The translations under genes were made by a program, and so were the position numbers. The notes under the pieces were generated by a model. The model did not search any database. It had not been told where the DNA came from and saw only the letters and a program-made list of their open reading frames with translations. A stretch of 38,966 bases of DNA from Aphanocapsa feldmannii 277cV (lineage in GTDB: Bacteria; Cyanobacteriota; Cyanobacteriia; PCC-6307; Cyanobiaceae): NCBI GenBank assembly GCA_004768415.1, contig SRMO01000028.1:36050-75015 (forward strand), read 5' to 3'. Shown piece by piece: positions 2,547-19,054 of this stretch (the stretch's first letter is position 1; every line of letters begins with the position of its first letter).

Positions 2547-5468
2547 TCAGGCGACCCGATCTGCCGCGGTCGGCTTGGCAGCCTTCTTGCCTTTGCCCCT
2601 CTGGCGCAGGCTGCGGGGTGATGGGTCCGCCGGGCTTCCCACGGCTTCGGGCCCCACCGCCTCGGGCTCCCCATCCACGGCAATGCGACTGTTGGCTTCA
2701 ATGCGTCCCAGCACCTGGCGTGCCCGCAGCACCACGTCCGACGGCAGACCCGCCAGGCGGGCAGCTTCGATGCCATAGCTGCGATCGGCGCCGCCGGCCC
2801 TCACCCGGTGCATGAACACCAGGCGATCCTCCTGCTCCAGCACGGTCACCTGGAAGTTGGCGACGTTGGAGAGCTGCGTTGCCAGCTCGTTGAGCTCGTG
2901 ATAGTGGGTCGCGAAGACAGTGCGGGCCCGGATCCGCTCGGCCAGGTCCTCCGCCACGGCCCAGGCGATCGAGAGCCCATCGAAGGTGGCGGTGCCGCGG
3001 CCGATCTCATCGAGCAGCACGAGCGAATTGCTGCTGGCGTGGTGCAGGATGTTGGCCGTCTCGGTCATCTCGACCATGAAGGTGGACTGGCCGGCGGCCA
3101 GGTCATCCACGGCACCCACCCGCGTGAAGATGCGGTCACAGAGTGACAGCTGCGCCCGCTCGGCCGGTACGTAGCTGCCGATCTGGCTGAGCAGCTGCAG
3201 CAGACCGGTCTGTCGCAGGTAGCAGCTCTTGCCGCTGGCATTCGGCCCTGTCAGCACCATCAGGTCCGGCCGGCCGGCCTCCCCCAGGTGCAGGTCATTG
3301 GCGCTGAACTGTCCGCCCACCAGGGTCTGCTCCACCACGGGATGACGCCCGGCGACGATCTCCATGGCCCGCCCCTCCAGCAAGGTGGGCCTGCAGTAGT
3401 GCTGGGTGGCGGCCAGCTCCGCCAGCCCCACCAGCACATCCAGTCGTGCCACGCGCACCGCGGCGCGCCGGATCGCTTCCGCCGCCAGGCCCACCTCCTC
3501 CCGCAGACGGCAGAACAGCTCGTATTCCAGCTGGGCCGTGCGGCGCCGCAGGCTGAGGATGCGACCCTCCCGCTCCTTCAGTTCCGGGGTGACGAAACGC
3601 TCCTCGTTGGCAAGGGTCTGGCGACGGATGTAGTGATCAGGCACCTGGCCTGCCTTCGCCTTGCTGACGCTGAGGAAGTAGCCGAAGCTGCGATGGAGGC
3701 AGAGCTTCAGGTTGGAGATCCCCGTGGCCTGGCGCTCCCGCTGTTCCAGGTCGCGCAGCCACACTTCGTCCCCATCGATCCTGTCACGCAGATCGTCGAG
3801 GGTTTCATCCACACCATCGAGGATCAGCCCCCCTTCGCTGAGGCTGAGGGGCGGTGTGGGCGTGAGGGTTTCCCGCAGGCGTCGGGTCAGTGACAGCAGA
3901 TCCGGTTCCACGCAGCGCAGGGCGGCCAGATGGGGACTGATGCTGTCCGCCAGGTGGCCCGCCAGGCGGGGCAGACGCTCCAGACCATCGGCCAGGGCCA
4001 CCAGGTCCCGGGCGCTGGCCGTACCTGCGCCAGCCCTGCCGGCCAGGCGTTCCAGATCCCCCATGGGCCGCAGCAGGCGGCGCAGGCACAGCCGCAACTC
4101 GCTGTTGCCCAGCAGTTCGGCGATGCTGTCCTGGCGTTGTTCGATCGCTTCACGCTCCAGCAGCGGTTGCTGCAGCCAGCGCCGCAGGCTGCGCCCACCC
4201 ATGGCCGTCACCGTGCGATCGATGGCCCAGAGCAGGGAGCCCTGCAGCAGGCCATCCCGCTGGGTCTGGGTCAGTTCGAGGTTCCTTGCCGTCTGATGGT
4301 CCAGCACGAGGTACTGGCTGCGCTGGTAGGTGGTGGGCATGGCCAGGGGCACGGTGGTGCCCGGCCGGGTGCTGTCGAGATAGGACAGCAGCCCACCACA
4401 GGCGCCCAGGGCCAGGGGCAGGCTGCCCAGGCCGAGGCCATCCACACTGGCCAGCTGGAAACGATCCAGCAGGCGGGCCAGCGCTGCGGCTGCTGTGAAG
4501 GGCGTGCATCCACTGGCGGTGAGGGCGATTCCTGCCGGACACCAACCCGGTCGCCGTGCCTCGCTCCCACCGCCTGCCTCGGCACCTGCGGCCCACACCA
4601 GCTCCGCCACACCGAGGCGCAGGAGTTCCTGCTGCAGCTCGGCACTGTCGGGCAGCTGAGTGGCCTGAAACTCACCCGTGGAGATATCGGCAATGGCCAG
4701 GCCCCAGCAGGGGGTCCTGGCGTCGTCGTCGCCCACCACCGCGGCCAGCCAGTTGTTGCGACGGGCCGTGAGCATGGCCTCCTCGATCACCGTGCCGGGG
4801 GTGATCACCCGGGTGACCTCGCGCCTGATCAGCCCTCCCTGCTGGCTGGGGGAGGCTTCCAGCTGGTCACAGAGGGCGATGCCGTGGCCCCTGGCCACAA
4901 GCAGGCCGCAGTAGCGCTCGGCAGCGTGATGGGGAATGCCGGCCATGGGCACCCGGCCGATGCCGCGGCCTGCTTCCTTGCCGGTGAGCGCGAGTTCCAG
5001 CTCCCGGGATGCTGTGATGGCGTCTTCGAAGAAGCATTCGAAGAAGTCGCCGAGCCTGTAGAGCAGCAGGCGGCCGGGATGTTGCCGCTTCAGCTCCACG
5101 TAGTGACGCATCACCGGCGCCAGGGCGAGGGGATTCACCTGGCTGTGGTGGGTCCAGCGCAGATTGTCGAGGGGGTCCTCCGGGCCTGCAGTCCCTTGCA
5201 AACCGCCGGCATCACCGCGGTCTGCCTGACCGCTGTCGGCGGGGTCGTCGTGGGAGCCAGGCACCTGACAGTTGAGTCGCTCCCCCCGCTCCCGGGCCTG
5301 TCGTCGCCGCCCCGGCACTGCCGGGGTGTCCCGTCCGGACGATCGACGCCTGCCGGCTGCCGCCGCTGGTGGTGCCGCCGCAAAGAGCGTCCTCTGGCCA
5401 TCCTCCTCGATCGCCTCCACGGGAATAAGAGGCAGTTGGTCCGGCGGGGAATCAGGGATGGCCGGCAC
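2547..5468 (-). CDS. mutS: DNA mismatch repair protein MutS
   Basis: MutS recognises mispaired bases and recruits repair proteins. The roughly 973-residue product has the mismatch-binding Phe-x-Glu motif in GDFFE (about 140-144), the core and lever domains, the Walker A motif GPNASGKS (about 741-748), Walker [11 protein letters not shown] (Asp near 820) and the ATHYHE motif near 850. GPNASGKS replaces the common GPNMGGKS. No ATG exists near the conserved start; the open frame continues far upstream through psbZ on the other strand, which is not credible. GTG 5468 is chosen because GAAGGA lies just upstream. About 105 residues rich in Pro, Arg, Gly and Asp come before the first conserved block [19 protein letters not shown], giving a long, probably disordered N-terminal tail. 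It is divergent from psbZ and convergent with cobH. It ends in a basic KGKKAAK tail. Confidence 0.93.
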
Positions 5469-5472
5469 CGAT

Positions 5473-5478
5473 TCCTTC
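5473..5478 (-). promoter_or_regulatory. Ribosome-binding site of mutS
   Basis: On the minus strand the sequence reads GAAGGA, four bases before the GTG at 5468. It is the only purine-rich site near the conserved N-terminus and decides the non-ATG start. Confidence 0.45.
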
Positions 5479-5570
5479 AAGGCTGTTGCGGATCGTAGGG
5501 AGGCTTCACGGTGCGCTCGATTGCCGTGGGACAATCTCTGCAACTCTTCAGGCCATGAGCGGCACAGCCC

Positions 5571-5759
5571 ATGCAACTGCTCAACACCCTCACCGTTCTG
5601 CTCCTCGTGGTGGTGAGCTTCGCCCTGGTGATCGCCGTTCCCGTGCTCTACGCCGGCACGCAGGACTCCGCAAGGGCGAACCGGCTGATTCTGCTGGGCA
5701 GTGGTGTGTGGGTGGCACTTGTGCTGCTCAACTGGGGGATGAGCGTCTTCGTGGTCTGA
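5571..5759 (+). CDS. psbZ: Photosystem II protein PsbZ
   Basis: The 62-residue membrane protein PsbZ (Ycf9) sits at the edge of the photosystem II core in the thylakoid membrane and helps stabilise it. The sequence begins [20 protein letters not shown], forming the first transmembrane helix, has the conserved loop [16 protein letters not shown], and ends in a second helix with NWGMSVFVV. The length is exactly that of the family. It starts at ATG 5571. ribH follows after seven bases, so the two are very likely one transcript. The 100 bases before the gene also hold the divergent mutS start, and a promoter there is expected, although I see no clear consensus. Confidence 0.97.
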
Positions 5760-5766
5760 AAAGTCC

Positions 5767-6246
5767 TTGACCATCTTCGAAGGTCGTTTCTCGGAGCTTG
5801 CAGCGGTCCGCATCGGCGTCGTTGTAGCCCGCTTCAACGACATGGTGACCTCCCGTCTGTTACTGGGTTGCCTGGACTGCCTGTCCCGCCACGGCATCGA
5901 CACGGCCGACGCCAGCTCCCAGCTGGATGTGGCCTGGGTTCCAGGCTGTTTCGAGATCCCCCTGGTGGCCCAGCGTCTGGCTGCGAGCCAACGCTACGAC
6001 GTGGTGATTGCCCTCGGCGCGGTGATCCGCGGCGACACCCCCCACTTCGATGTGGTGGTAGCCGAGGTGTCCAAAGGCGTGGCCGCTGTCGGCCGCGAGA
6101 GCGGTGTGCCGGTGATCTTCGGGGTGCTGACCACCGACACCCTGCAGCAGGCCCTCGAGCGGGCGGGCATCAAGAGCAACCTCGGCTGGAGCTACGGTCT
6201 GGAGGCCCTGGAGATGGCCAGCCTGATGCAGGGCCTGCCCGGCTAG
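5767..6246 (+). CDS. ribH: 6,7-dimethyl-8-ribityllumazine synthase
   Basis: RibH condenses 5-amino-6-ribitylaminouracil with dihydroxybutanone phosphate, the second-last step of riboflavin synthesis, in an icosahedral or pentameric cytoplasmic shell. The 159-residue protein has [10 protein letters not shown] at the N-terminus, the substrate loop VPGCFEIPL, and [12 protein letters not shown] with the catalytic histidine. [16 protein letters not shown] and [15 protein letters not shown] close the fold. The start is a TTG at 5767, seven bases after the psbZ stop, and no closer ATG precedes the conserved region. Tight spacing to psbZ suggests one operon. The gene is complete, although the region immediately downstream is rearranged. 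Confidence 0.96.
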
Positions 6247-6468: not shown

Positions 6469-6774
6469 AGGTGCTACTCACCGGCGCATCAGGTCAACTG
6501 GGTCGGATCCTCAGCCGTGCCGTGCCGGACGGGGTCGAGCTGATCCCCTGGTCCCGCACGAGCTCGACCTCTCGGACGATCAGGCTGGCAGCCCGAGCAG
6601 ACCGTGGAGCCTCTGGGCGTGTATGGGGGCCAGCAAAGCCGCCGGGGAACGGATGGCCTTTGCCCTGCCAGGGGTGCGGGTGTTGCGGACCAGCTGGATC
6701 CATGGGCCCGTGGGCAGGAACTTCTGCCGGGCCATGCTGCGGCTGCACGGGGCCAGGATGGCAGCAGGCGAACC
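6465..6774 (+). pseudogene. rfbD: Broken rfbD copy 1 (dTDP-4-dehydrorhamnose reductase)
   Basis: RfbD makes the last reduction in dTDP-L-rhamnose synthesis. This copy keeps the true N-terminus, MKVLLTGASGQLGRILSRAV, with the NAD(P)-binding glycine motif. Compared with the second copy at 11411-12266, it has lost one A in the SRNELD codons, which shifts the frame. It then lacks about 207 bases, joined at a short TGGCRGC match near 6586. After the junction, the other frame again encodes the family sequence EPLGVYG.SKAAGE and VLRTSWIHGPV. Similarity to copy 2 stops at about 6774, just before the transposase scar. The gene cannot make a working reductase. Confidence 0.85.
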
Positions 6775-7068: not shown

Positions 7069-10000
7069 ATGACATCGCCTTTGCCATTAGCCCTCTTCAA
7101 CGGCAGCTGCATGGGGCCACGACCGACAAGAATCGGTGTTACAGCACGGGAGTTGGCGGCCCATTTACTATCAGCGGAGATTCCCCTTTTGGATCCTTGC
7201 GGTGGGTCGGGTCCCTATAACATTGCTATTCCTTCTGATCTGTGTCCAGAGTACGGTACCCGTGGACATTTGAATCGTCTTCTTTGGACGCAGAAGAAAC
7301 TTCCTGGCATTCTGAGGCAATGGGGCCATCCATTGCTATTTTCACCATTGCCGGAAGCCCCCTTGCTGGATAATGTGCGCAGTGTTGTGCTAGCTCATGA
7401 TCTGATTCCCCAGCACTTCCCGCGTAGTAGACACTTGAGAGCTTATCATATCAATTATGTCCCCAAGGTGCTGCACAATTCAAAAATTGTACTATGCGAC
7501 TCGGTTGCAACAGCTAAAGAAATTCACCAGCATCTCAACATTCCGCTCTCCAAGATTATTCCGATTAAGCTAGGATTTAATCCACTTAATATTCATCCAC
7601 TTTCTCTAGAACGTCATCATGAATTGCTTGTTTTAGGTAGCCATGGCCATCACAAAAATCTTATAGGATTACTCTATGCTTTTGCACAGGTTCGCGACCA
7701 ATCATTGATGTTACGCTTTATCGGCCCAGAACATGATCTCTTAACTCAACCCTTAAAAGATCTTGCCTGTGAACTTGGTATTGGATCCCGATGTATCTTT
7801 CAAGGTTGGGTTGATGATGTAGAGAAGCTCAGGTGTATCAATCAAGCTCGAGCTTTGATTTTGCCAAGCTTATGGGAGGGCTTTGGCTTGCCGGCATTGG
7901 AAGCTATGGCTTGTGGAACGCCTGTGTTGGCAAGTACGGCAGGAGGCATTCCTGAAGTTGTAGGAAACGCAGCACTGCTCTTCAATCCCCAGCGCATTGA
8001 GGCTATCACTGGAGCCATTGACGATTTTCTCAGCGACTCCCAGTTGGAGCGGCAGTTGCAACAAGCTGGTCCACAGCAGGCCCGGAAATTCCATTGGGCT
8101 GAATCAGCAGATCAAGTTTTCGAAGTGCTCAAGTATGTGGATGCTGCACATCCATATGGATTAACACCCACAACAGTTAAACGGATATTTCAGTACTACC
8201 TGAAACGCGACTTGACAACTGTCCATATATCGACTAAACATATATTTTTAATCTTCAAGAATGTTTCCTGGATTATTCTAGGTACATATCTTGCCCTGCA
8301 TGGATGGCTGATGCGTTTGGTAAAAAAAATAAAGTTATCATGCAATTCTCTTGTTATTTCGAAGCAAATAGTGCTCAAGTATGTGGATGCTGCACATCCA
8401 TATGGATTAACACCCACAACAGTTAAACGGATATTTCAGTACTACCTGAAACGCGACTTGACAACTGTCCATATATCGACTAAACATATATTTTTAATCT
8501 TCAAGAATGTTTCCTGGATTATTCTAGGTACATATCTTGCCCTGCATGGATGGCTGATGCGTTTGGTAAAAAAAATAAAGTTATCATGCAATTCTCTTGT
8601 TATTTTGAAGCAAATATTGAAAAAATTGTTTAAGCCCTACTTAAAGCAATATTTAATAATTTCTCGTGTCCTGGCCAAATATAGATTTCTGATTCTCAAG
8701 AATGCCACCTGGATCATTCTAGGTAAATGGCTAGTGCGTTTGGCAAAAAAAACAAAATTATTACACAACTCTCTTGTTATTTTAAAGCAAATATTGAAAA
8801 AATTGTTTAAGCTCTACTTAAAGCAATATTTGATAGTTTCTCGTGATCTGGCCAAATATAAATTTTTAATCCTCAAGAGTATCGCCTGGATCATTCTAAA
8901 TGTAAAGCTAATGCGTGGCATGAGAGTATCTGATTCTGCCATCACAAATCGGAGGAGCCAAACCATGAAACTTTGGCTGGATGGCCAATGTTTGCAAACG
9001 CAACGGTGCCGTGTCGAGTCTGGTTTTCGTATCATAGCTTTCCTCAAGAGACTTGTGGAGGTGGATAAGCAAATCGATTTATATGTTTCGCTGAATGCGC
9101 AAAATCCACATGAGGCTGTGAAGGCTCTTCATTATCTTGCACAACACCTTCCCATGGCTAATGTACAGATCTGGGAGGGTGCAGTCGAAAAAACAATGAT
9201 AAGGAGTGGCTCACGCAAAATTCCCAATCATAGCCTCAGCAGGCTTTCTCTCGCGCATCACATCAACTGTCTTGCACCAGATCTTGCACTTTTTTCTAAT
9301 TCTTTTGAAGAAGAATATGGTTATGCTCCATGGCTTCAATCACAATGGAAAATTTTCCCAGAGGTTTCTAAATTATCCTGTGTTACTGTAGGAATTTTTT
9401 GTAAGCCAAGTTTATTTAATTCTGTTAAAATACAAGAGAATATTATAAAAAATCCTGATTTACTATTTTCTACTTCAAAGAAACTTAGTATATTTGATGT
9501 TGTTGTTATTGAAGCAGATCAAAAGTCAAGTGAGTATGTAAGAATAAACAAATTTATAAATTTATTAATTTCAAAAAATATAAATTTGAATTTTATTCAT
9601 GATAAATCCACTATTATAAATATATTTAAGATATTTTGCGTAAATAAATTTGACAATCAGCCTAATTTAAAATTAAATCAAATACAAATCAATTTACTTA
9701 ATCTATCAGAAAAATCTTTAGTTGATCATTTTCCTCACTTGTATGTAGATAATATAAGTATACCTAAAATGCTGCCATTATCAGAGCCAGACAAATCAAA
9801 AATGCCTCGATTCTTATTTGATGCTACATTTACTTTAATACATAATTATAATTGCAATACCGGAATTCAACGAGTCATAAGAAGATTATCTGAGCAATTA
9901 AGTAGCTTAAATAGTTCCATAGAAGAAAAAGTTATTGTTTTTGATCATAAAAATTTAAAATTCAAGGAAATTATTAATAATAAATATTCTTCAAAAAATA

Positions 10001-11397
10001 TTGATCTTTTCTCTCAAAACTCAAATGACATTATGATTATGCTAGATTCTAACTGGGAGATTTTACAATCAATGAAATCTGAGCTGCAGAGATTTGTCCT
10101 ACATGGAAATCAACTTATAGGTGGTCTACATGACATGATTCCGTTGCACTCTTCAGGTTTTATAGCAGCTTCACATTTACCAGAATCATTTGCAACTTAC
10201 TTCAAATTTATACTACTTCACTCTACTGCTATTATGTGTGTTTCTCGTGCCATTGCAGATGAGCTATACATCCTTTTAACTGGTATTAACTTTCCATATT
10301 CAATCAAAATTGGTTTCTGGAAGCTAGGTGCAGACATGCTTGACATTTCAAAGTCTGATCATATTGATATACAATCGAAAAAATGTAAACGTCTTATGTT
10401 TATCAGTGTTGGCACAATTGACATTCGTAAAGGTCATTCCATCATTTTAGAAGCTTTTGAAAAACTCTGGAATGAGGACTGGGATGTTGAGCTCAAACTT
10501 GTAGGTAGATACGGTGGGCGGAATGATCACTTTATTAATAAGCTCAAACGACACCCTGAACTTGGTTGCCGTCTACATTGGTACGAGCGTCTTGGTGATA
10601 ACGATTTGGCAAAGCTTTATGCTAACGCAGATGCATTAATCCTAGCATCTTACAGTGAAGGTTTTGGCTTGCCTATTGCTGAAGCTGGATATTATGGAAA
10701 GCCTGTAATCGTGAGTGATCTTCCTGTTTTCCGAGAAGTTTCTATGGCTGCACCACAAGCGTTTTTCTTTGCGCCTGGTTCTGCCCAAGAATTAGCAGCC
10801 CAAATCCGAAGATTCAGCCATGAATCTCACAATGGCCTGGCCACAACAGCTACGCCAGTAGCCTGGCCAAGTTGGTCTGAAAGTATGGATCAACTTAAAT
10901 CTGTTATTTTAGAAGACAAGTACTACAAGATTTACCAACCAAAGGATAGCGAAGATTCTTTTCAGACAGAAAGCATCGGTAAAATCTATACACAATCATA
11001 TTTGTGTGAAGCATCTCAGAAATACTATCTTGAACTTTTCCGAAAACCTCAGAGAAGCCAATGCAAAAACTACTTAGATATTATTCTTTTTGTAAAGAAT
11101 TTATCAGATCAAATTTATTCAAGCAATAAAGATTTAAACTATAAGCTAGGTGTAAGATTGGGTGCGCAATCTGTTATTAAGAACAGTAGAGAAACTGGAT
11201 ATGCACCAATCTTTGTAGATATTCCTTTTGTACTCTTGCCTGATCATCAACATATTATGTGCATCAGTTACCCCTACAAATGGTGGCGTAATGGTGTCAC
11301 TTTTGTAGATTTAGATCTACTCCAAATGCTGCCGGATGGTTGCAATTGGTGGGGACAGAGTCCCTTGCGCATTTCCTTGTCACCCCAAGGCACGTAA
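7069..11397 (+). CDS. Double glycosyltransferase (two GT4-like modules joined by tandem repeats)
   Basis: This single open frame encodes 1442 residues and probably adds sugars to a surface polysaccharide; the donor and acceptor are unknown. Module 1 (about 1-350) starts LALFNGSCMGPRPTRIGV and ends with a GT-B/GT4 signature: EGFGLPALE with Glu270 and Glu278, then ACGTPVLAS. Residues 353-615 are four tandem repeats of a Lys-flanked hydrophobic segment, described separately. Residues 633 on begin MKLWLDGQCLQTQRCRVESG, like the start of a separate cyanobacterial glycosyltransferase. A further domain starts near 912 (FLFDATFTLIHNYN.NTGIQR) and holds a second signature EGFGLPIAE (Glu1197, Glu1205). 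The last 200 residues are unassigned and end at the junction with rfbD copy 2, so the C-terminus may be truncated. Base composition is strikingly AT-rich, with lines as low as 5 G/C in 60 near 9541, against about 49 in 60 in cobH. It is clearly foreign. The start ATG 7069 lacks a good ribosome-binding site. Confidence 0.8.
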   Translation: MTSPLPLALFNGSCMGPRPTRIGVTARELAAHLLSAEIPLLDPCGGSGPYNIAIPSDLCPEYGTRGHLNRLLWTQKKLPGILRQWGHPLLFSPLPEAPLLDNVRSVVLAHDLIPQHFPRSRHLRAYHINYVPKVLHNSKIVLCDSVATAKEIHQHLNIPLSKIIPIKLGFNPLNIHPLSLERHHELLVLGSHGHHKNLIGLLYAFAQVRDQSLMLRFIGPEHDLLTQPLKDLACELGIGSRCIFQGWVDDVEKLRCINQARALILPSLWEGFGLPALEAMACGTPVLASTAGGIPEVVGNAALLFNPQRIEAITGAIDDFLSDSQLERQLQQAGPQQARKFHWAESADQVFEVLKYVDAAHPYGLTPTTVKRIFQYYLKRDLTTVHISTKHIFLIFKNVSWIILGTYLALHGWLMRLVKKIKLSCNSLVISKQIVLKYVDAAHPYGLTPTTVKRIFQYYLKRDLTTVHISTKHIFLIFKNVSWIILGTYLALHGWLMRLVKKIKLSCNSLVILKQILKKLFKPYLKQYLIISRVLAKYRFLILKNATWIILGKWLVRLAKKTKLLHNSLVILKQILKKLFKLYLKQYLIVSRDLAKYKFLILKSIAWIILNVKLMRGMRVSDSAITNRRSQTMKLWLDGQCLQTQRCRVESGFRIIAFLKRLVEVDKQIDLYVSLNAQNPHEAVKALHYLAQHLPMANVQIWEGAVEKTMIRSGSRKIPNHSLSRLSLAHHINCLAPDLALFSNSFEEEYGYAPWLQSQWKIFPEVSKLSCVTVGIFCKPSLFNSVKIQENIIKNPDLLFSTSKKLSIFDVVVIEADQKSSEYVRINKFINLLISKNINLNFIHDKSTIINIFKIFCVNKFDNQPNLKLNQIQINLLNLSEKSLVDHFPHLYVDNISIPKMLPLSEPDKSKMPRFLFDATFTLIHNYNCNTGIQRVIRRLSEQLSSLNSSIEEKVIVFDHKNLKFKEIINNKYSSKNIDLFSQNSNDIMIMLDSNWEILQSMKSELQRFVLHGNQLIGGLHDMIPLHSSGFIAASHLPESFATYFKFILLHSTAIMCVSRAIADELYILLTGINFPYSIKIGFWKLGADMLDISKSDHIDIQSKKCKRLMFISVGTIDIRKGHSIILEAFEKLWNEDWDVELKLVGRYGGRNDHFINKLKRHPELGCRLHWYERLGDNDLAKLYANADALILASYSEGFGLPIAEAGYYGKPVIVSDLPVFREVSMAAPQAFFFAPGSAQELAAQIRRFSHESHNGLATTATPVAWPSWSESMDQLKSVILEDKYYKIYQPKDSEDSFQTESIGKIYTQSYLCEASQKYYLELFRKPQRSQCKNYLDIILFVKNLSDQIYSSNKDLNYKLGVRLGAQSVIKNSRETGYAPIFVDIPFVLLPDHQHIMCISYPYKWWRNGVTFVDLDLLQMLPDGCNWWGQSPLRISLSPQGT
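8125..8616 (+). repeat. Near-perfect 246-bp tandem duplication inside the glycosyltransferase
   Basis: The unit 8125-8370 is repeated at 8371-8616. The only difference I see is TTTCGAAG versus TTTTGAAG near the end, which changes Ser to Leu. The period is 82 codons, so the frame is kept. Each unit runs from VLKYVDAAHPYGLTPTTVKR to LVISKQI or LVILKQI. The near identity indicates a very recent duplication or an assembly artefact. Confidence 0.95.
8617..8913 (+). repeat. Two diverged copies of the linker repeat (177-bp period)
   Basis: Copy 3 starts at 8617 and copy 4 at 8794, both with LKKLFK.YLKQYLI.SR.LAKY. They align with the latter part of the 82-residue units: the block FLIFKNVSWIILG matches FLILKNATWIILG and FLILKSIAWIILN. 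Copy 4 fades out near 8913. The hydrophobic core flanked by lysines suggests an amphipathic or membrane-associated helix. The linker was therefore built by successive duplication. Confidence 0.85.
8951..8957 (+). promoter_or_regulatory. Strong internal ribosome-binding site before an in-frame ATG (8965)
   Basis: GGAGGAG lies seven bases before ATG 8965, inside the long frame. It is the best Shine-Dalgarno match in this locus, and it precedes MKLWLDGQCLQ, a typical glycosyltransferase N-terminus. The second half may therefore also be translated as a separate protein of about 810 residues, or was a separate gene before fusion. Confidence 0.6.
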
Positions 11398-11410: not shown

Positions 11411-12266
11411 TGGGTCGAGAAATCAGCCGTGCCGTGCCGGACGGGGCCGAGCTGATCCCCTGCTCCCGCAACGAGCTCGACCTCTCGGACGCTCAGGCCT
11501 GTGGCAGCGCCGTTCAGCGCCACCACCCCGACTGGGTGCTCAATGCTGCCGCCTATACAGGGGTGGACAGGGCGGAAGCCGAACCTGAGCTGGCGATGGC
11601 GGTCAACGCCGCAGGCCCCGCCGCCCTCGCCGCCGCCCTGGCGCAAACCGGTGGCCGGCTGCTGCAGATCAGCACCGATTTCGTCTTCAGCGGTCGGCAG
11701 GGTCCCCCTGGCGGCCCGAGCAGACCGTGGAGCCTCTGGGCGTGTACGGGGCCAGTAAGGCCGCCGGGGAATGGGCGGCCCTTGCCCTGCCAGGGGCGCG
11801 GGTGTTGCGGACCAGCTGGCTCCATGGGCCCGTGGCCAGGAACTTCTGCCGGACCATGCTGCGGCTGCACGGGGCCAGGTCTGCAGCAGGCGAACCGCTG
11901 CCGGTGGTGGCGGATCAGGTGAGCTGCCCGACCGCAACCCACACCCTGGCCCGGGCCTGCTGGCGTGCCATCGGGGTGGGGGCGGACCCCGATGGGCCTC
12001 GGATCCTGCACTGGAGTGATGACGGCGTGGCCAGCTGGTACGACTTTGCGCTGGCGATCGGCGAACTTGGCAGCGCCGCTGGCTTGATTGTCGCTGCCGC
12101 GGAGGTGTACCCGATCCCGACATCTCGATACCCCACTGCCGCCCGGCGACCATCCTTCTCCCTGCTGGACTGTGCCACCAGTCGGCAGGCCCTGGGCCTG
12201 AGGGGGGTCCACTGGCGCAACGCCCTGGCGGCGGTGCTCAGTGAGATCGCTGGCGGGTCTGGATAG
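11411..12266 (+). pseudogene. rfbD: Broken rfbD copy 2 (5' truncated, frameshifted)
   Basis: This copy resumes at TGGGTCG (11411), equal to 6499 in copy 1, and so lacks the start codon and the first eleven codons with the NAD(P)-binding motif. The first frame reads LIPCSRNELDLSDAQ, NAAAYTGVDRAE and ISTDFVFSGRQG. Near 11700 a single-base change shifts the frame; the rest continues as EPLGVYGASKAAGEWA, SWLHGPVARNF, then PTATHTLARACW and ends at TAG 12264-12266. The YGASK catalytic motif and the STDFVF motif are intact but sit in different frames. Together with copy 1 it looks like one rfbD split and partly duplicated around the inserted glycosyltransferase gene. Confidence 0.85.
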
Positions 12267-12762: not shown

Positions 12763-13929
12763 TTGCTGTTCGAAGACGACATCAAGCAACTGATCGAGTC
12801 ATCCGTCACGTTTCCCCTCTGCGATCAGAATGACAACCCGATCCCAGGGGTCCGTGTCGTTGATCGGCTGGCCACCGAGTCCACATGGTCGAGCATCATC
12901 AAGCCTTCTGAACCCATTCCCCGGGTGGTCTTCTATTCGATCAAGGGGGGTGTCGGTCGCTCCACAGCCCTGGCCGCCTGCGCCCTGGCCCTGGCTGAAG
13001 CGGACCAACAGGTGCTGCTGCTGGATCTGGATCTGGAATCCCCAGGCCTTTCAACATCCCTGCTGCCGGAGGATCGCCAACCTGCTTTCGGCATCACCGA
13101 CTGGTTGGTGGAAGACCTTGTCGGCAATGGCGACAGCATCATCGAGGACCTACAGGCGGAAAGCCCCCTTCCCCGGCGGGGCCAGATCCTGGTGGTGCCG
13201 GCCCATGGCAGGAGACTCGGCGAATACATCAGCAAACTGGGTCGGGTGTGGATGCCCAGCGTTCCGGAGAATGGCCCACGCCGGATCTGGTCCGAGCGTC
13301 TCGCCCGCCTGCTTGGCAAGCTCGAGGAGCTGCACAGGCCCGACATCGTGCTGATCGACTCCCGCGCCGGCATCGACGAGATGGCTTCTGCTTGCCTCAC
13401 CGATCTGGGCGCCTCGCGAATCTATCTGTTTGCACAGGACAGCGTCCAGACCTGGTCCGGCTATCGACTGCTGTTCCAGCACTGGCGGCAGAACGACGTT
13501 GCTCTGGAGATGCGGGAACGGCTGCAACTGGTGGCAGCCATGCTGCCCAGCTGGGATGGCAAGTTCGATAAGGCTGCCACTGACCTGTGGGAGCAGGCCT
13601 ACAACCTCTTCCTCGAAACCCTGTATGACGAGCAGCCAGCGGAAATCGATCAAGCCCATGATCAAGACGACCGCGGCGTCTCCCTCGAAAGCCGGAACCA
13701 GGCCGATGGGTCTTCGGAGGATTGCAGCAACTTCAGCTTTGATCTGAACGATCAGGAGGCCCCTCACCATGCCTGCCTGATTCCCTGGAACCAGAGCTTC
13801 GCTGGCATTGCGTCTCACTACAGACGTCTGGATGGCATCCCGTCAGGACTGCTTGAGTCGGTGTATGGCGAATTAATCAAAAATCTCTTGATCAACGATC
13901 TCCACAGCAAGCTGGGCCCACCCTCATGA
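12763..13929 (+). CDS. KGGVGR-variant MinD/ParA-like ATPase
   Basis: The 388-residue product is a cytoplasmic P-loop ATPase of the MinD/ParA (SIMIBI) class. The deviant Walker A motif is YSIKGGVGRSTALAA (Lys61 to Thr68), with Arg in place of the usual Lys/Gly-Lys. It is followed by VLLLDLDLESPGLST (A-prime box, near 84-98) and DIVLIDSRAGIDEMA (Walker B region, near 190-205). No ParB, septum-site or flagellar partner lies nearby. Instead, its stop overlaps the ATG of the next gene (ATGA, 13926-13929), so the two are translationally coupled. The start is unclear: TTG 12763 is simply the first possible codon after the in-frame TAG at 12757, and the gene may be 5'-damaged. Function is unknown; ATPases with this motif occur in accessory islands. 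Compared with the core genes, composition is slightly less GC-rich. Confidence 0.75.
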   Translation: MLFEDDIKQLIESSVTFPLCDQNDNPIPGVRVVDRLATESTWSSIIKPSEPIPRVVFYSIKGGVGRSTALAACALALAEADQQVLLLDLDLESPGLSTSLLPEDRQPAFGITDWLVEDLVGNGDSIIEDLQAESPLPRRGQILVVPAHGRRLGEYISKLGRVWMPSVPENGPRRIWSERLARLLGKLEELHRPDIVLIDSRAGIDEMASACLTDLGASRIYLFAQDSVQTWSGYRLLFQHWRQNDVALEMRERLQLVAAMLPSWDGKFDKAATDLWEQAYNLFLETLYDEQPAEIDQAHDQDDRGVSLESRNQADGSSEDCSNFSFDLNDQEAPHHACLIPWNQSFAGIASHYRRLDGIPSGLLESVYGELIKNLLINDLHSKLGPPS

Positions 13930-15503
13930 GCGCGACGCCCTGCACCCCCCGGCAGCTTCGCGAGGCCATCGTGGCCACGCTGCCAGCCGACCCGGCGGCA
14001 GAACATGGTCAGCAGGGTCCGGAAAGGCAAAGCCAGCTCTATCTGCCGTCCTCCCATACCAGGGCGCTGCGGTTGGAAAGCAGCCTGGTGATCGGCGGCC
14101 GCGGTGTTGGCAAATCTGTCTGGAGCGAGGCACTGCAAGGCAATGTGCAGGAGAGTGGCGTGCTGCCGCCAGGTTTCTTCCCCGCCTACAGCCTCTCTGT
14201 TCAGCCTGGCTGTGGCATCTCGCCGAAACGCAACATCTATCCCGACCCTGATACGTTCGACGCTTTGCTCGCCCGATCATTCCCTGCCTTTGCAATTTGG
14301 CGGGGGGTGCTTTGCAGGGCGCTGGCCCAGGTCGCCGGCCAGGATTGCCTTCCCAAGGACAGCTGGGAATCAACGGTGGGCTGGGTACAGACGTCCCCTG
14401 AAGATGTGGCCAGGCTCATCGAAGACAGCGACCGGATCCTGCAGCAACGGGGTCAAGGCCTGTTACTGGTCTTCGATGCCCTGGATCGGGTCAGCAGCTC
14501 AGGCCGATGGAGCGTTGTCGACAAGGCGATCGGTGATCTGATGCGACTGGTGCTGCAGCTCAAGGGAAGCCGACGCATCCACGCCAAGGTGTTCCTGCGT
14601 ACCGACCAGTATGAGCGGGGCAACTTTGCCGGCATCCCCGATTTTTCCAAGCTTCAGTCCACCCGCGTCGAGCTGATCTGGTCGGCCAGCGACCTCCATG
14701 GCCTGCTCTGGCAAACCCTCACCAATGGTGGCCCCGGTGCCGCCCGGGATCAGTTCCGCTCCTGGTGTGATGATTTATCCAGACAGGGAAATACCTGGTC
14801 TGATTTACCCAGACAGGGAAACCTGCTGTTTGATCCACCCGCCATGTCCTCAGGCTCCGGAGCCGGGCGCTGGCCCATTCCTCAGGAGCTACAACGGAAT
14901 CAAAGGGTCCAGCGCCGGATCTTCCAGGAGCTGGCCGGCCCATGGATGGGGAAGGATCGCCGCCGCGGCGTTCCCTATGTGTGGATCGTCAATCATCTCG
15001 CTGATGGCCAGGGACAGACGACGCCGCGATCGTTTCTGGCTGCGCTTCGCCATGCCGCCGAGGATTCGCTGGAGCGCTACTGCGACCATCCCCTGGCCCT
15101 CCACTACGACAGCCTCAAGCGGGGCGTGCAGGCTGCTTCCCAGATCCGTATCGATGAACTCGCTGAGGACCATGCCTGGATGCGGGACGTCATGCGTCCC
15201 CTTGCGGGCATCATGGTTCCCTGTTCGAAGGATGATGTCCTGGCGCGATGGCGGAATGAATGGGGTGCCTTGCAGAGTGATGGCAGCTCCCAGCCCTCTG
15301 AAGTCAGCCGCTTGGTGGAGTCTCTGCCTGAGTCTCTTGCCAGGGATGATTGGCCTGGAGTGCTGAAGTATCTCGAGCAGCTGGGGTTGATCACCTGGTT
15401 GCGCGATGGCCGGCTCAACATGCCTGATCTCTTTCGGGTCGGCTTCCGTCTGGGCCGACGCGGCGGCATCAAGCCCGCCCTGCGTCATTCCCGCTCGGCA
15501 TGA
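13926..15503 (+). CDS. P-loop ATPase partner protein, function unknown
   Basis: The 525-residue protein has a Walker A motif GGRGVGKSVW (57-64) and a Walker B-like strand GLLLVFDALDR (about 177-187). A sensor-like AKVFLRTDQYE follows near 220. This order resembles STAND/AAA+ regulatory ATPases. Between about 283 and 302 there is a duplicated ten-residue unit, DLSRQGNTWS and DLPRQGNLLF. The C-terminal third, with PGVLKYLEQLGLITWLRDG, looks like a winged-helix domain. It has no signal peptide or membrane segment. It overlaps the upstream KGGVGR ATPase by four bases, and its 3' end overlaps the convergent coaE by 19 bases. The pair looks like one functional unit. A role in stress response or defence is possible, but nothing in the sequence proves it. 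Confidence 0.75.
   Translation: MSATPCTPRQLREAIVATLPADPAAEHGQQGPERQSQLYLPSSHTRALRLESSLVIGGRGVGKSVWSEALQGNVQESGVLPPGFFPAYSLSVQPGCGISPKRNIYPDPDTFDALLARSFPAFAIWRGVLCRALAQVAGQDCLPKDSWESTVGWVQTSPEDVARLIEDSDRILQQRGQGLLLVFDALDRVSSSGRWSVVDKAIGDLMRLVLQLKGSRRIHAKVFLRTDQYERGNFAGIPDFSKLQSTRVELIWSASDLHGLLWQTLTNGGPGAARDQFRSWCDDLSRQGNTWSDLPRQGNLLFDPPAMSSGSGAGRWPIPQELQRNQRVQRRIFQELAGPWMGKDRRRGVPYVWIVNHLADGQGQTTPRSFLAALRHAAEDSLERYCDHPLALHYDSLKRGVQAASQIRIDELAEDHAWMRDVMRPLAGIMVPCSKDDVLARWRNEWGALQSDGSSQPSEVSRLVESLPESLARDDWPGVLKYLEQLGLITWLRDGRLNMPDLFRVGFRLGRRGGIKPALRHSRSA
14772..14831 (+). repeat. 30-bp tandem duplication in the ATPase gene
   Basis: 14772-14801 and 14802-14831 are related 30-base units, sharing GATTTA.CCAGACAGGGAAA. 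They add ten residues without breaking the frame, and a third partial start (GATCCACCC) follows. Confidence 0.8.
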
Positions 15504-17553: not shown

Positions 17554-18868
17554 AGCGAGACCCCAGCTCCTGCATGTCTGTCGGTACCACCTCGAGGGTG
17601 ATGGTCTTGCCCTGGCGCACCAGGGTCAGCTCCAGGGCCGCCCCCACGCCGGCACGATCCACTGCCTCCACCATGGCGGAGGGGTCGGTGATCTCCCCGT
17701 CCCCGGCCTCGATGATCACGTCACCCTTGCGCAGACCCGCTGCCGCTGCGGGACTGTCGGGCATCACCTGGACCACCAGAACTCCTGATCGCTCCGGCAG
17801 GTTGCCATAGCCATTGGGATCTTCCCTGTCCTTCCTGGCCAGCTCCGCCGTATGGACCTGGATCCGCACCCCGATCATGGCGTGGCTCACCTTGCCGGAG
17901 GCCACCAGCTGCCGGGCGATGGCCTCTGCGCGGTTGATCGGAATGGCGAAGCCCAGGCCGGCACCGGGGCCGCTGCGCACCAGGGTGTTGATCCCCACCA
18001 CTTCCCCCGCCGCATTGAGCAGGGGCCCCCCGGAATTGCCGGGATTGATGGCGGCGTCGGTCTGGATCAGGTCCAGCCGCTTGCCGGTGATGCCAAGGTC
18101 CCCTCCGTCACGGTCGATGCTGCTGATGATGCCCAGCGTCACGGTGTTGTTCAGACCGTAGGGATTGCCGACGGTGATGGCCCAGTCGCCCACCTTGACG
18201 GCATCGGAGTCACCCAGCGTGACGACCGGCATGGATCCATCGGTATCCAGCTGCAGCACGGCAAGATCCGTGATGGCATCGCGACCCAGCACCTTGGCGC
18301 CGAGACGTCGGCCATCGGTGAGGGTGACGCTGGCATCGTCGCTGCCCTGCACCACATGGGCATTGGTGAGCACCAGACCTTCAGCATCGAAGATCACACC
18401 GGTGCCCTGTCCCCGCCGTACCCGCGGGGGAAAGGGGGCTTCACCGCGGCCGCGCGGGAAGAACTCACGGAAGAAAGGATGGTTGCGGAACAGTTCGGGC
18501 ATGTCCTGCATCCCCTCCTCATCCACCGTGCGCTCCACATCGATGCGCACCGTGGCAGGACCGGCACGGCGCACGGCCTGTGCCACAAAGGACTCCCGGG
18601 CCACGGTGGGCTGCGGCTGCGGCTCGGTCCTGGGCTCCTGTGCCACGGTGGGCTGCGGTGGCTCGGGCATGACCTCGGGCCTGGGCTCCTGTGCCACGGC
18701 GGGCTGCGGTGGCTCGGGCATGACCTCGGGCCTGGGCTCCTGTGCCGCGGCGGGCAGAAGGGCCCGCAGCTGGCTGAGCTGCTGATGTTGCCCCAGGCCA
18801 TAGCCGAGGCCAGCGGCCGCCAGGATCAGGGCCGTAGCGGTGATCAGGGGCTCAAGACGACGATTCAT
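17546..18868 (-). CDS. HtrA/Deg-family serine protease with PDZ domain
   Basis: Deg proteases degrade misfolded proteins outside the cytoplasm, in the periplasm or thylakoid lumen. From ATG 18868 the product has about 440 residues: an N-terminal hydrophobic anchor (LITATALILAAAGLGYGLG), then a Pro/Glu-rich tail with tandem repeats. The trypsin-like domain has His171 in LTNAHVV, Asp201 in DAITDLAVLQ and Ser279 in NPGNSGGPLL. A single PDZ domain with SGVLVVQVMPDSPAAAAG follows. The order fits the cyanobacterial HhoA/HhoB/HtrA trio, but I cannot say which paralogue. GTG 18883 is an alternative start. It is divergent from the LuxR-type gene. Confidence 0.93.
   Translation of the reverse strand: MNRRLEPLITATALILAAAGLGYGLGQHQQLSQLRALLPAAAQEPRPEVMPEPPQPAVAQEPRPEVMPEPPQPTVAQEPRTEPQPQPTVARESFVAQAVRRAGPATVRIDVERTVDEEGMQDMPELFRNHPFFREFFPRGRGEAPFPPRVRRGQGTGVIFDAEGLVLTNAHVVQGSDDASVTLTDGRRLGAKVLGRDAITDLAVLQLDTDGSMPVVTLGDSDAVKVGDWAITVGNPYGLNNTVTLGIISSIDRDGGDLGITGKRLDLIQTDAAINPGNSGGPLLNAAGEVVGINTLVRSGPGAGLGFAIPINRAEAIARQLVASGKVSHAMIGVRIQVHTAELARKDREDPNGYGNLPERSGVLVVQVMPDSPAAAAGLRKGDVIIEAGDGEITDPSAMVEAVDRAGVGAALELTLVRQGKTITLEVVPTDMQELGSRSR
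18634..18735 (-). repeat. 51-bp tandem repeat in the protease linker
   Basis: Two almost identical 51-base units (18634-18684, 18685-18735) encode AQEPRPEVMPEPPQP plus two residues, and a partial third unit follows at 18736. They form a Pro/Glu-rich spacer between the membrane anchor and the catalytic domain. Copy number may vary between strains. Confidence 0.9.
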
Positions 18869-19054
18869 CCCGATGTGAGACACGGACTGACGTCAGGCTG
18901 CCGGACAATTGTGCCTGAAGTGCAACGGGTCACATCTGCTCACCAACACAGTCGTCGACAGGGCCCTGCTGCTGTTGTGAAGAGAATCCAAGGCCCTCCG
19001 GGGCCTGGACAGGGCCTTTGCACAATGCGGGACACATGAGATTCACCCTGCAGT

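Follow-up and report, generated by a model that had tools for sequence, protein, structure and literature searches.

A lineage-restricted, recently expanding repeat linker between two GT4 glycosyltransferase domains of Aphanocapsa feldmannii 277cV

What is the purpose, if any, of a long lysine-rich repeat placed between two glycosyltransferase domains? The question is raised by one reading frame of Aphanocapsa feldmannii 277cV, found in a window of 38,966 nucleotides (the whole stretch analyzed; contig SRMO01000028.1, positions 36,050 to 75,015, with coordinates below counted from its first letter). The window comes from a 2.55-Mb genome in 100 contigs, the sole genome sampled for its genus. 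A preliminary description had pointed out four tandem, Lys-flanked hydrophobic repeats at 8125–8913 and suggested that they form a series of amphipathic helices that could lay the enzyme on the membrane or act as a ruler between active sites.

Repeat array and its two flanking enzymes

The reading frame carries two stretches matching Glycos_transf_1 (PF00534; Pfam, E = 2e-62, 210 bits against a curated cut-off of 26.4). The features of the locus are as follows.

6499–6774, forward strand: upstream remnant of rmlD (dTDP-4-dehydrorhamnose reductase), internally deleted, ~91% identical to the downstream copy
7069–11397, forward strand: open reading frame of 1442 amino acids, two GT4 domains flanking the repeat linker
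7069–8148, forward strand: GT1, a GT-B/GT4 domain, residues 1–360 (Pfam, 28 homologues, AlphaFold, Foldseek)
8125–8370, forward strand: repeat copy R1, 82 residues (353–434)
8371–8616, forward strand: repeat copy R2, 82 residues (435–516)
8617–8793, forward strand: repeat copy R3, 59 residues (517–575)
8794–8916, forward strand: truncated repeat copy R4, residues 576–616, without the RL.KK.KL half
8951–8956, forward strand: GGAGGA, Shine-Dalgarno-like site 8 nt upstream of ATG 8965
8965–11397, forward strand: GT2 part, with its probable original start at ATG 8965 (residue 633)
11411–12266, forward strand: downstream rmlD copy, lacking its start and divided between two frames

PF04321 matched the rest of the genome only weakly, and no intact rmlD was found. 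Elsewhere in the window, a MutS frame on the reverse strand (2547–5903) has ~260 residues ahead of its first MutS domain, probably because mechanical ORF calling assigned it a start that is not the native one. A frame weakly matching ParA/MinD-like ATPases (12763–13929) is directly followed by a weak AAA_16 frame (13926–15503). A GC-rich 51-bp tandem repeat (18623–18755; 2.6 copies, 96% matches) lies inside frame 17852–19039, which has no Pfam match. No Rfam families were found in the region.

The array corresponds to residues 353–615, and its position, its four copies, and the periods of 59 residues in older copies and 82 in newer ones were all reproduced; both flanking enzymes are GT4. Repeat finders detected direct duplications of 246 nt (8124–8369/8370–8615) and 177 nt (8550–8726/8727–8903). 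R1 and R2 differ at 1 nt in 246 (99.6% identity), the copies in the 177-nt pair share 86% of their nucleotides (blastn E = 3.9e-49), and R2 and R3 share 58% of their amino acids when the insert is left out. The relationship between young and old copies is genuine: the R1 tail matches the R3 tail (84% over 67 nt; blastn E = 8.8e-11). Compared with the 59-residue unit, the longer one has an extra 6-residue insert and additional N-terminal sequence, part of which is the GT1 tail. R1 opens with ~8 residues that still belong to the C-terminus of the first glycosyltransferase domain (VLKYVDA), so the end of that domain was carried into the new copy when the unit was recently duplicated. The elements FLI.KN.WIILG and RL.KK.KL, described as shared by older and newer copies, are present in R1 to R3. 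The first reads FLIFKNVSWIILG in R1/R2 and FLILKNATWIILG in R3; in R4 it is reduced to FLILKSIAWIILN, and this copy lacks the second element and diverges past residue ~616.

GT1 retains the EX7E motif (residues 270–278), and its model has a GT-B fold matching the GT4 enzymes MshA, BshA, PimA, and WaaG (Foldseek). Its homologues in relatives are free-standing cyanobacterial GT4 enzymes that are 36 to 54% identical across the whole domain and also conserve EX7E; unlike the frame studied here, all 28 that were aligned lack both the linker and GT2. All 28 terminate at most a few residues from query residue 360, and in the AlphaFold model, built with the homologue alignment, pLDDT is mostly >90 up to residue 360 and ~35 to 69 beyond. 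The repeat thus extends an enzyme that was already complete. No GT2-like fusion partner was seen directly downstream in the neighborhoods of GT1 homologues. Two positions conserved in ≥90% of relatives are changed in GT1: G21R in the PTGIG loop (7129–7131) and R191S in LGRHDPHKN (7639–7641). Judging from the sequence, these substitutions may reduce catalysis or reduce or alter donor binding.

The GT4 domain of GT2 spans approximately residues 926 to 1260, followed by a tail without a homologue. In 390 class genomes, no convincing relative turned up for residues 633–925 (8965–9840), which may represent a GT-B N-terminal domain that has diverged strongly. Short matches to this part (E ~1e-4 to 6e-3) contain stops and do not fix the GT2 start. 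ATG 8965 is in frame and follows GGAGGA by 8 nt, and the ~8917–8964 stretch ahead of it falls outside the repeat and has leader-like codons; GT2 thus seems once to have been a separate gene starting at this ATG. Because no stop separates the GT1 and GT2 parts, a fusion and a separate GT2 are both possible products. The earlier statement that the repeats join two glycosyltransferases thus holds for the continuous frame, with the qualification that translation of GT2 could plausibly begin at its own start codon.

Growth and coding character of the linker

The linker has no described relative, as the preliminary description had supposed. No profile match above cut-off was obtained with Pfam, NCBIfam, PHROGs, or PDB sequences, and viral contigs and plasmids gave no match either. 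A protein search of 300 family genomes returned no relatives, and a linker profile run against 390 class-level and 399 order-level cyanobacterial genomes (overlapping samples) recovered only its own genome. No similar basic linker was found in other multi-glycosyltransferase reading frames of relatives. Three sets of marginal hits were set aside: class-level profile matches (E 0.004 to 0.1), mostly with stops inside or in short frames, which we attribute to chance; a sub-threshold 19-residue match to an ISL3 helix-turn-helix (Pfam); and a PHROG transposase match (E = 0.005), the latter two being too short and weak.

Three age layers can be distinguished in the array. The R1/R2 pair has 1 change in 246 nt, the two 177-nt copies are 86% identical, and identity falls to 71% between the R1/R2 unit and the R3/R4 unit. 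The frame was kept in every duplication, and all unit lengths are multiples of 3. The sequence is that of a linker that grew through nested in-frame tandem duplications. The 8-mer TTTCGAAG is common to the ends of R1 and GT1, and the sole R1/R2 difference falls inside it; the shared 8-mer hints at microhomology at the duplication joint. The second 246-nt copy may be an assembly artefact, against which stands the single base by which the two copies differ.

All alternative frames of the linker are rich in stops. None of 3000 dinucleotide shuffles of a 200-codon linker stretch was free of stops (mean 13.5), a comparison that somewhat overstates the case since the copies are not independent. The dN/dS ratio is ~0.29 for R2 versus R3 and 0.43 for the 177-nt duplicates, and amino acid identity exceeds that expected from random substitution (P = 0.02 and 0.05, respectively). 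Taken together, these values argue with moderate force that the linker is translated and mildly constrained and point only weakly to selection on it. Its codon-position GC content is 0.37/0.29/0.39, without the GC1 excess present in both glycosyltransferase parts.

The linker is strongly basic: it has 52 K/R and 6 D/E, a net charge of +46 in 282 residues, while the GT1 and GT2 parts are near neutral. AlphaFold predicts, with low confidence, helices at residues 367–381, 389–441, 449–463, 471–502, 507–537, 539–562, 566–596, and 598–617, corresponding to two helices, A and B, per repeat unit. Structure prediction thus gave a helical linker, and the low-confidence model had no match among PDB folds. 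Helix A (e.g., LLHNSLVILKQILKKLFKLYLKQYLIVSRDL) has a hydrophobic moment of 0.44 to 0.56 and a charge of +4 to +5 (P = 0.05 to 0.16 against shuffles), and helix B (e.g., KYRFLILKNATWIILGKWLVRLAKK) is hydrophobic without a clear face (P = 0.15 to 0.98). The proposed series of amphipathic helices is therefore borne out as far as predicted helicity goes and, marginally, for helix A; helix B is not amphipathic. Overall, a lineage-restricted, recently expanding, basic, and hydrophobic linker is real.

Possible roles of the linker

Being basic, hydrophobic, and predicted to be helical, the linker is suited to membrane association, and the reading that we tentatively favor starts from this property. 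GT1 would originally have been a free-standing GT4 gene. It would have lost its stop codon and acquired a C-terminal tail, helical and rich in lysine, that came to be read in one frame with GT2, a second GT4 gene. At least three nested tandem duplications, all in frame and of widely differing ages, would then have expanded the tail into a linker of ~270 residues made of helix pairs, cationic amphipathic A and hydrophobic B. Such a linker would most likely lie along, or dip into, the surface of the cytoplasmic (or thylakoid) membrane through lysine-phosphate contacts and buried hydrophobic faces, binding monotopically as other membrane-associated GT-B enzymes do. It would hold GT1, and GT2 where the fusion is translated, close to lipid-linked acceptors and so could co-localize two reactions.

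The kept frame, the lack of stops, dN/dS below 0.5, the charge of +46, the row of helices predicted after residue 360, the hydrophobic moment and positive charge of helix A, and the hydrophobicity of helix B support this reading. The low pLDDT, marginal amphipathicity, lack of a homologue for a conservation test, weak evidence of selection, the G21R/R191S changes in GT1, and possible translation of GT2 from its own ATG weigh against it. The suggestion that the helices lay the enzyme on the membrane is thus plausible in its basic, hydrophobic, and helical aspects, and weaker where amphipathicity is concerned.

Two characterized enzymes provide a precedent. PglH of Campylobacter jejuni, a GT4 enzyme, is attached to the membrane by a basic amphipathic "ruler helix" (PMC5792488). 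Both PglH and the frame studied here are GT-B/GT4, and the GT1 model matches PglH entry 6eji (Foldseek); in PglH, however, there is one helix, within the N-terminal domain, whereas here an array of repeats follows the C-terminal domain, and no sequence similarity was found between the PglH helix and the linker helices. In MG517 of Mycoplasma genitalium, a C-terminal positively charged amphipathic helix adheres to the membrane (PMC6506492). MG517 and the linker have in common a C-terminal region unrelated to other glycosyltransferases and carrying a cationic helix, whose amphipathicity is marginal in helix A of the linker, but MG517 has a single helix (residues 316–338), without a tandem repeat or fusion to a second glycosyltransferase.

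A serious rival, which we nevertheless regard as unlikely, is a fusion born of rearrangement and now drifting. Neighboring genes would have been brought into one frame in a decaying AT-rich island, slippage or unequal crossing-over would have expanded an AT-rich repeat, and the Lys, Ile, Leu, and Phe would be compositional, coming from AT-rich codons; the linker would then be lineage-specific junk with no function. The setting agrees with this: the glycosyltransferase island has 22 to 53% GC within a window of 62% GC (surroundings ~60 to 70%) and is bracketed by two rmlD remnants, of which the downstream one is disrupted across two frames. The orphan status of the repeat, the almost unmutated duplication, the loss of conserved residues in GT1, and the missing GC1 excess point the same way. 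Against it, copies only 71 to 86% identical in DNA still keep the frame and the residue pattern, with zero stops and dN/dS <0.5, and the charge of the linker is one-sided, yet the equally AT-rich GT2 part is balanced.

Two separate proteins are rather less probable still. In that case GT2 would be translated from ATG 8965, and the repeat would be a C-terminal tail tethering GT1 alone, with no spacing of active sites. The GGAGGA at 8 nt, the leader-like codons outside the repeat, and the free-standing nature of GT1 relatives speak for such an arrangement. On the other hand, in the absence of an intervening stop, ribosomes on the tail must run into GT2 unless terminated otherwise, SD-like sites precede other in-frame start codons too, and homologues of the GT2 N-terminus that would corroborate the start were not found.

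We consider it improbable that the linker founds a new class of tandem-repeat membrane scaffold, in which helix-pair units arising in one lineage and multiplying by in-frame duplication of whole units would, by their copy number, tune the spacing of the glycosyltransferases or the firmness of attachment and hence the surface glycan. The sequence is novel; its functional kind probably is not.

Equally hard to credit, or slightly more so, is a polytopic membrane anchor with the B segments as transmembrane helices. The best 19-residue window in a Wimley-White octanol scan is helix B of R1/R2 (−10.2 kcal/mol), and the sums for R3 and R4 are also negative; the scan over-calls, though, since it gives −8.4 inside the GT2 glycosyltransferase domain. 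Lysines flank both sides of the B segments and occur within them. Each duplication adds a B segment and so would move GT2 to the opposite side of the membrane, out of reach of the sugar nucleotides in the cytosol, and for this reason attachment in the plane of the membrane is preferred.

Very unlikely, finally, is a molecular ruler whose length sets glycan chain length as the coiled coil of WbdD does: the position between two glycosyltransferase modules and the variation in length by whole units would suit it, but acidic residues are too scarce for ordinary coiled-coil salt bridges, no homologue provides a conserved length, the array was lengthened recently, and the predicted helices are broken and of low confidence. 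In WbdD-type rulers, a coiled coil separates a terminating enzyme from the polymerase (PMC11231755), and neither Pfam nor NCBIfam finds a terminator (methyltransferase or kinase) domain in the reading frame. Judged from its 52 basic and 6 acidic residues and the missing terminator, the linker is very probably not a coiled-coil chain-length ruler, and the earlier suggestion of a ruler between active sites finds no support. The WbdA/WbdD O-antigen system resembles the locus in having two glycosyltransferase modules in one chain and a helical spacer; the spacer there belongs to the partner protein, as does a membrane amphipathic helix (PMC11231755). The two differ in that the spacer described here is basic and hydrophobic and has no coiled-coil signature.

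If the linker is not functional, the locus is a warning that AT-rich in-frame intergenic repeats can mimic linker domains. If the linker is a membrane scaffold, it would be a new protein segment caught mid-construction, with the end of a domain joined to the repeat unit, three growth steps of unlike age, and two enzymes on one chain, and any tuning of glycan synthesis by repeat number could be tested cleanly in it.
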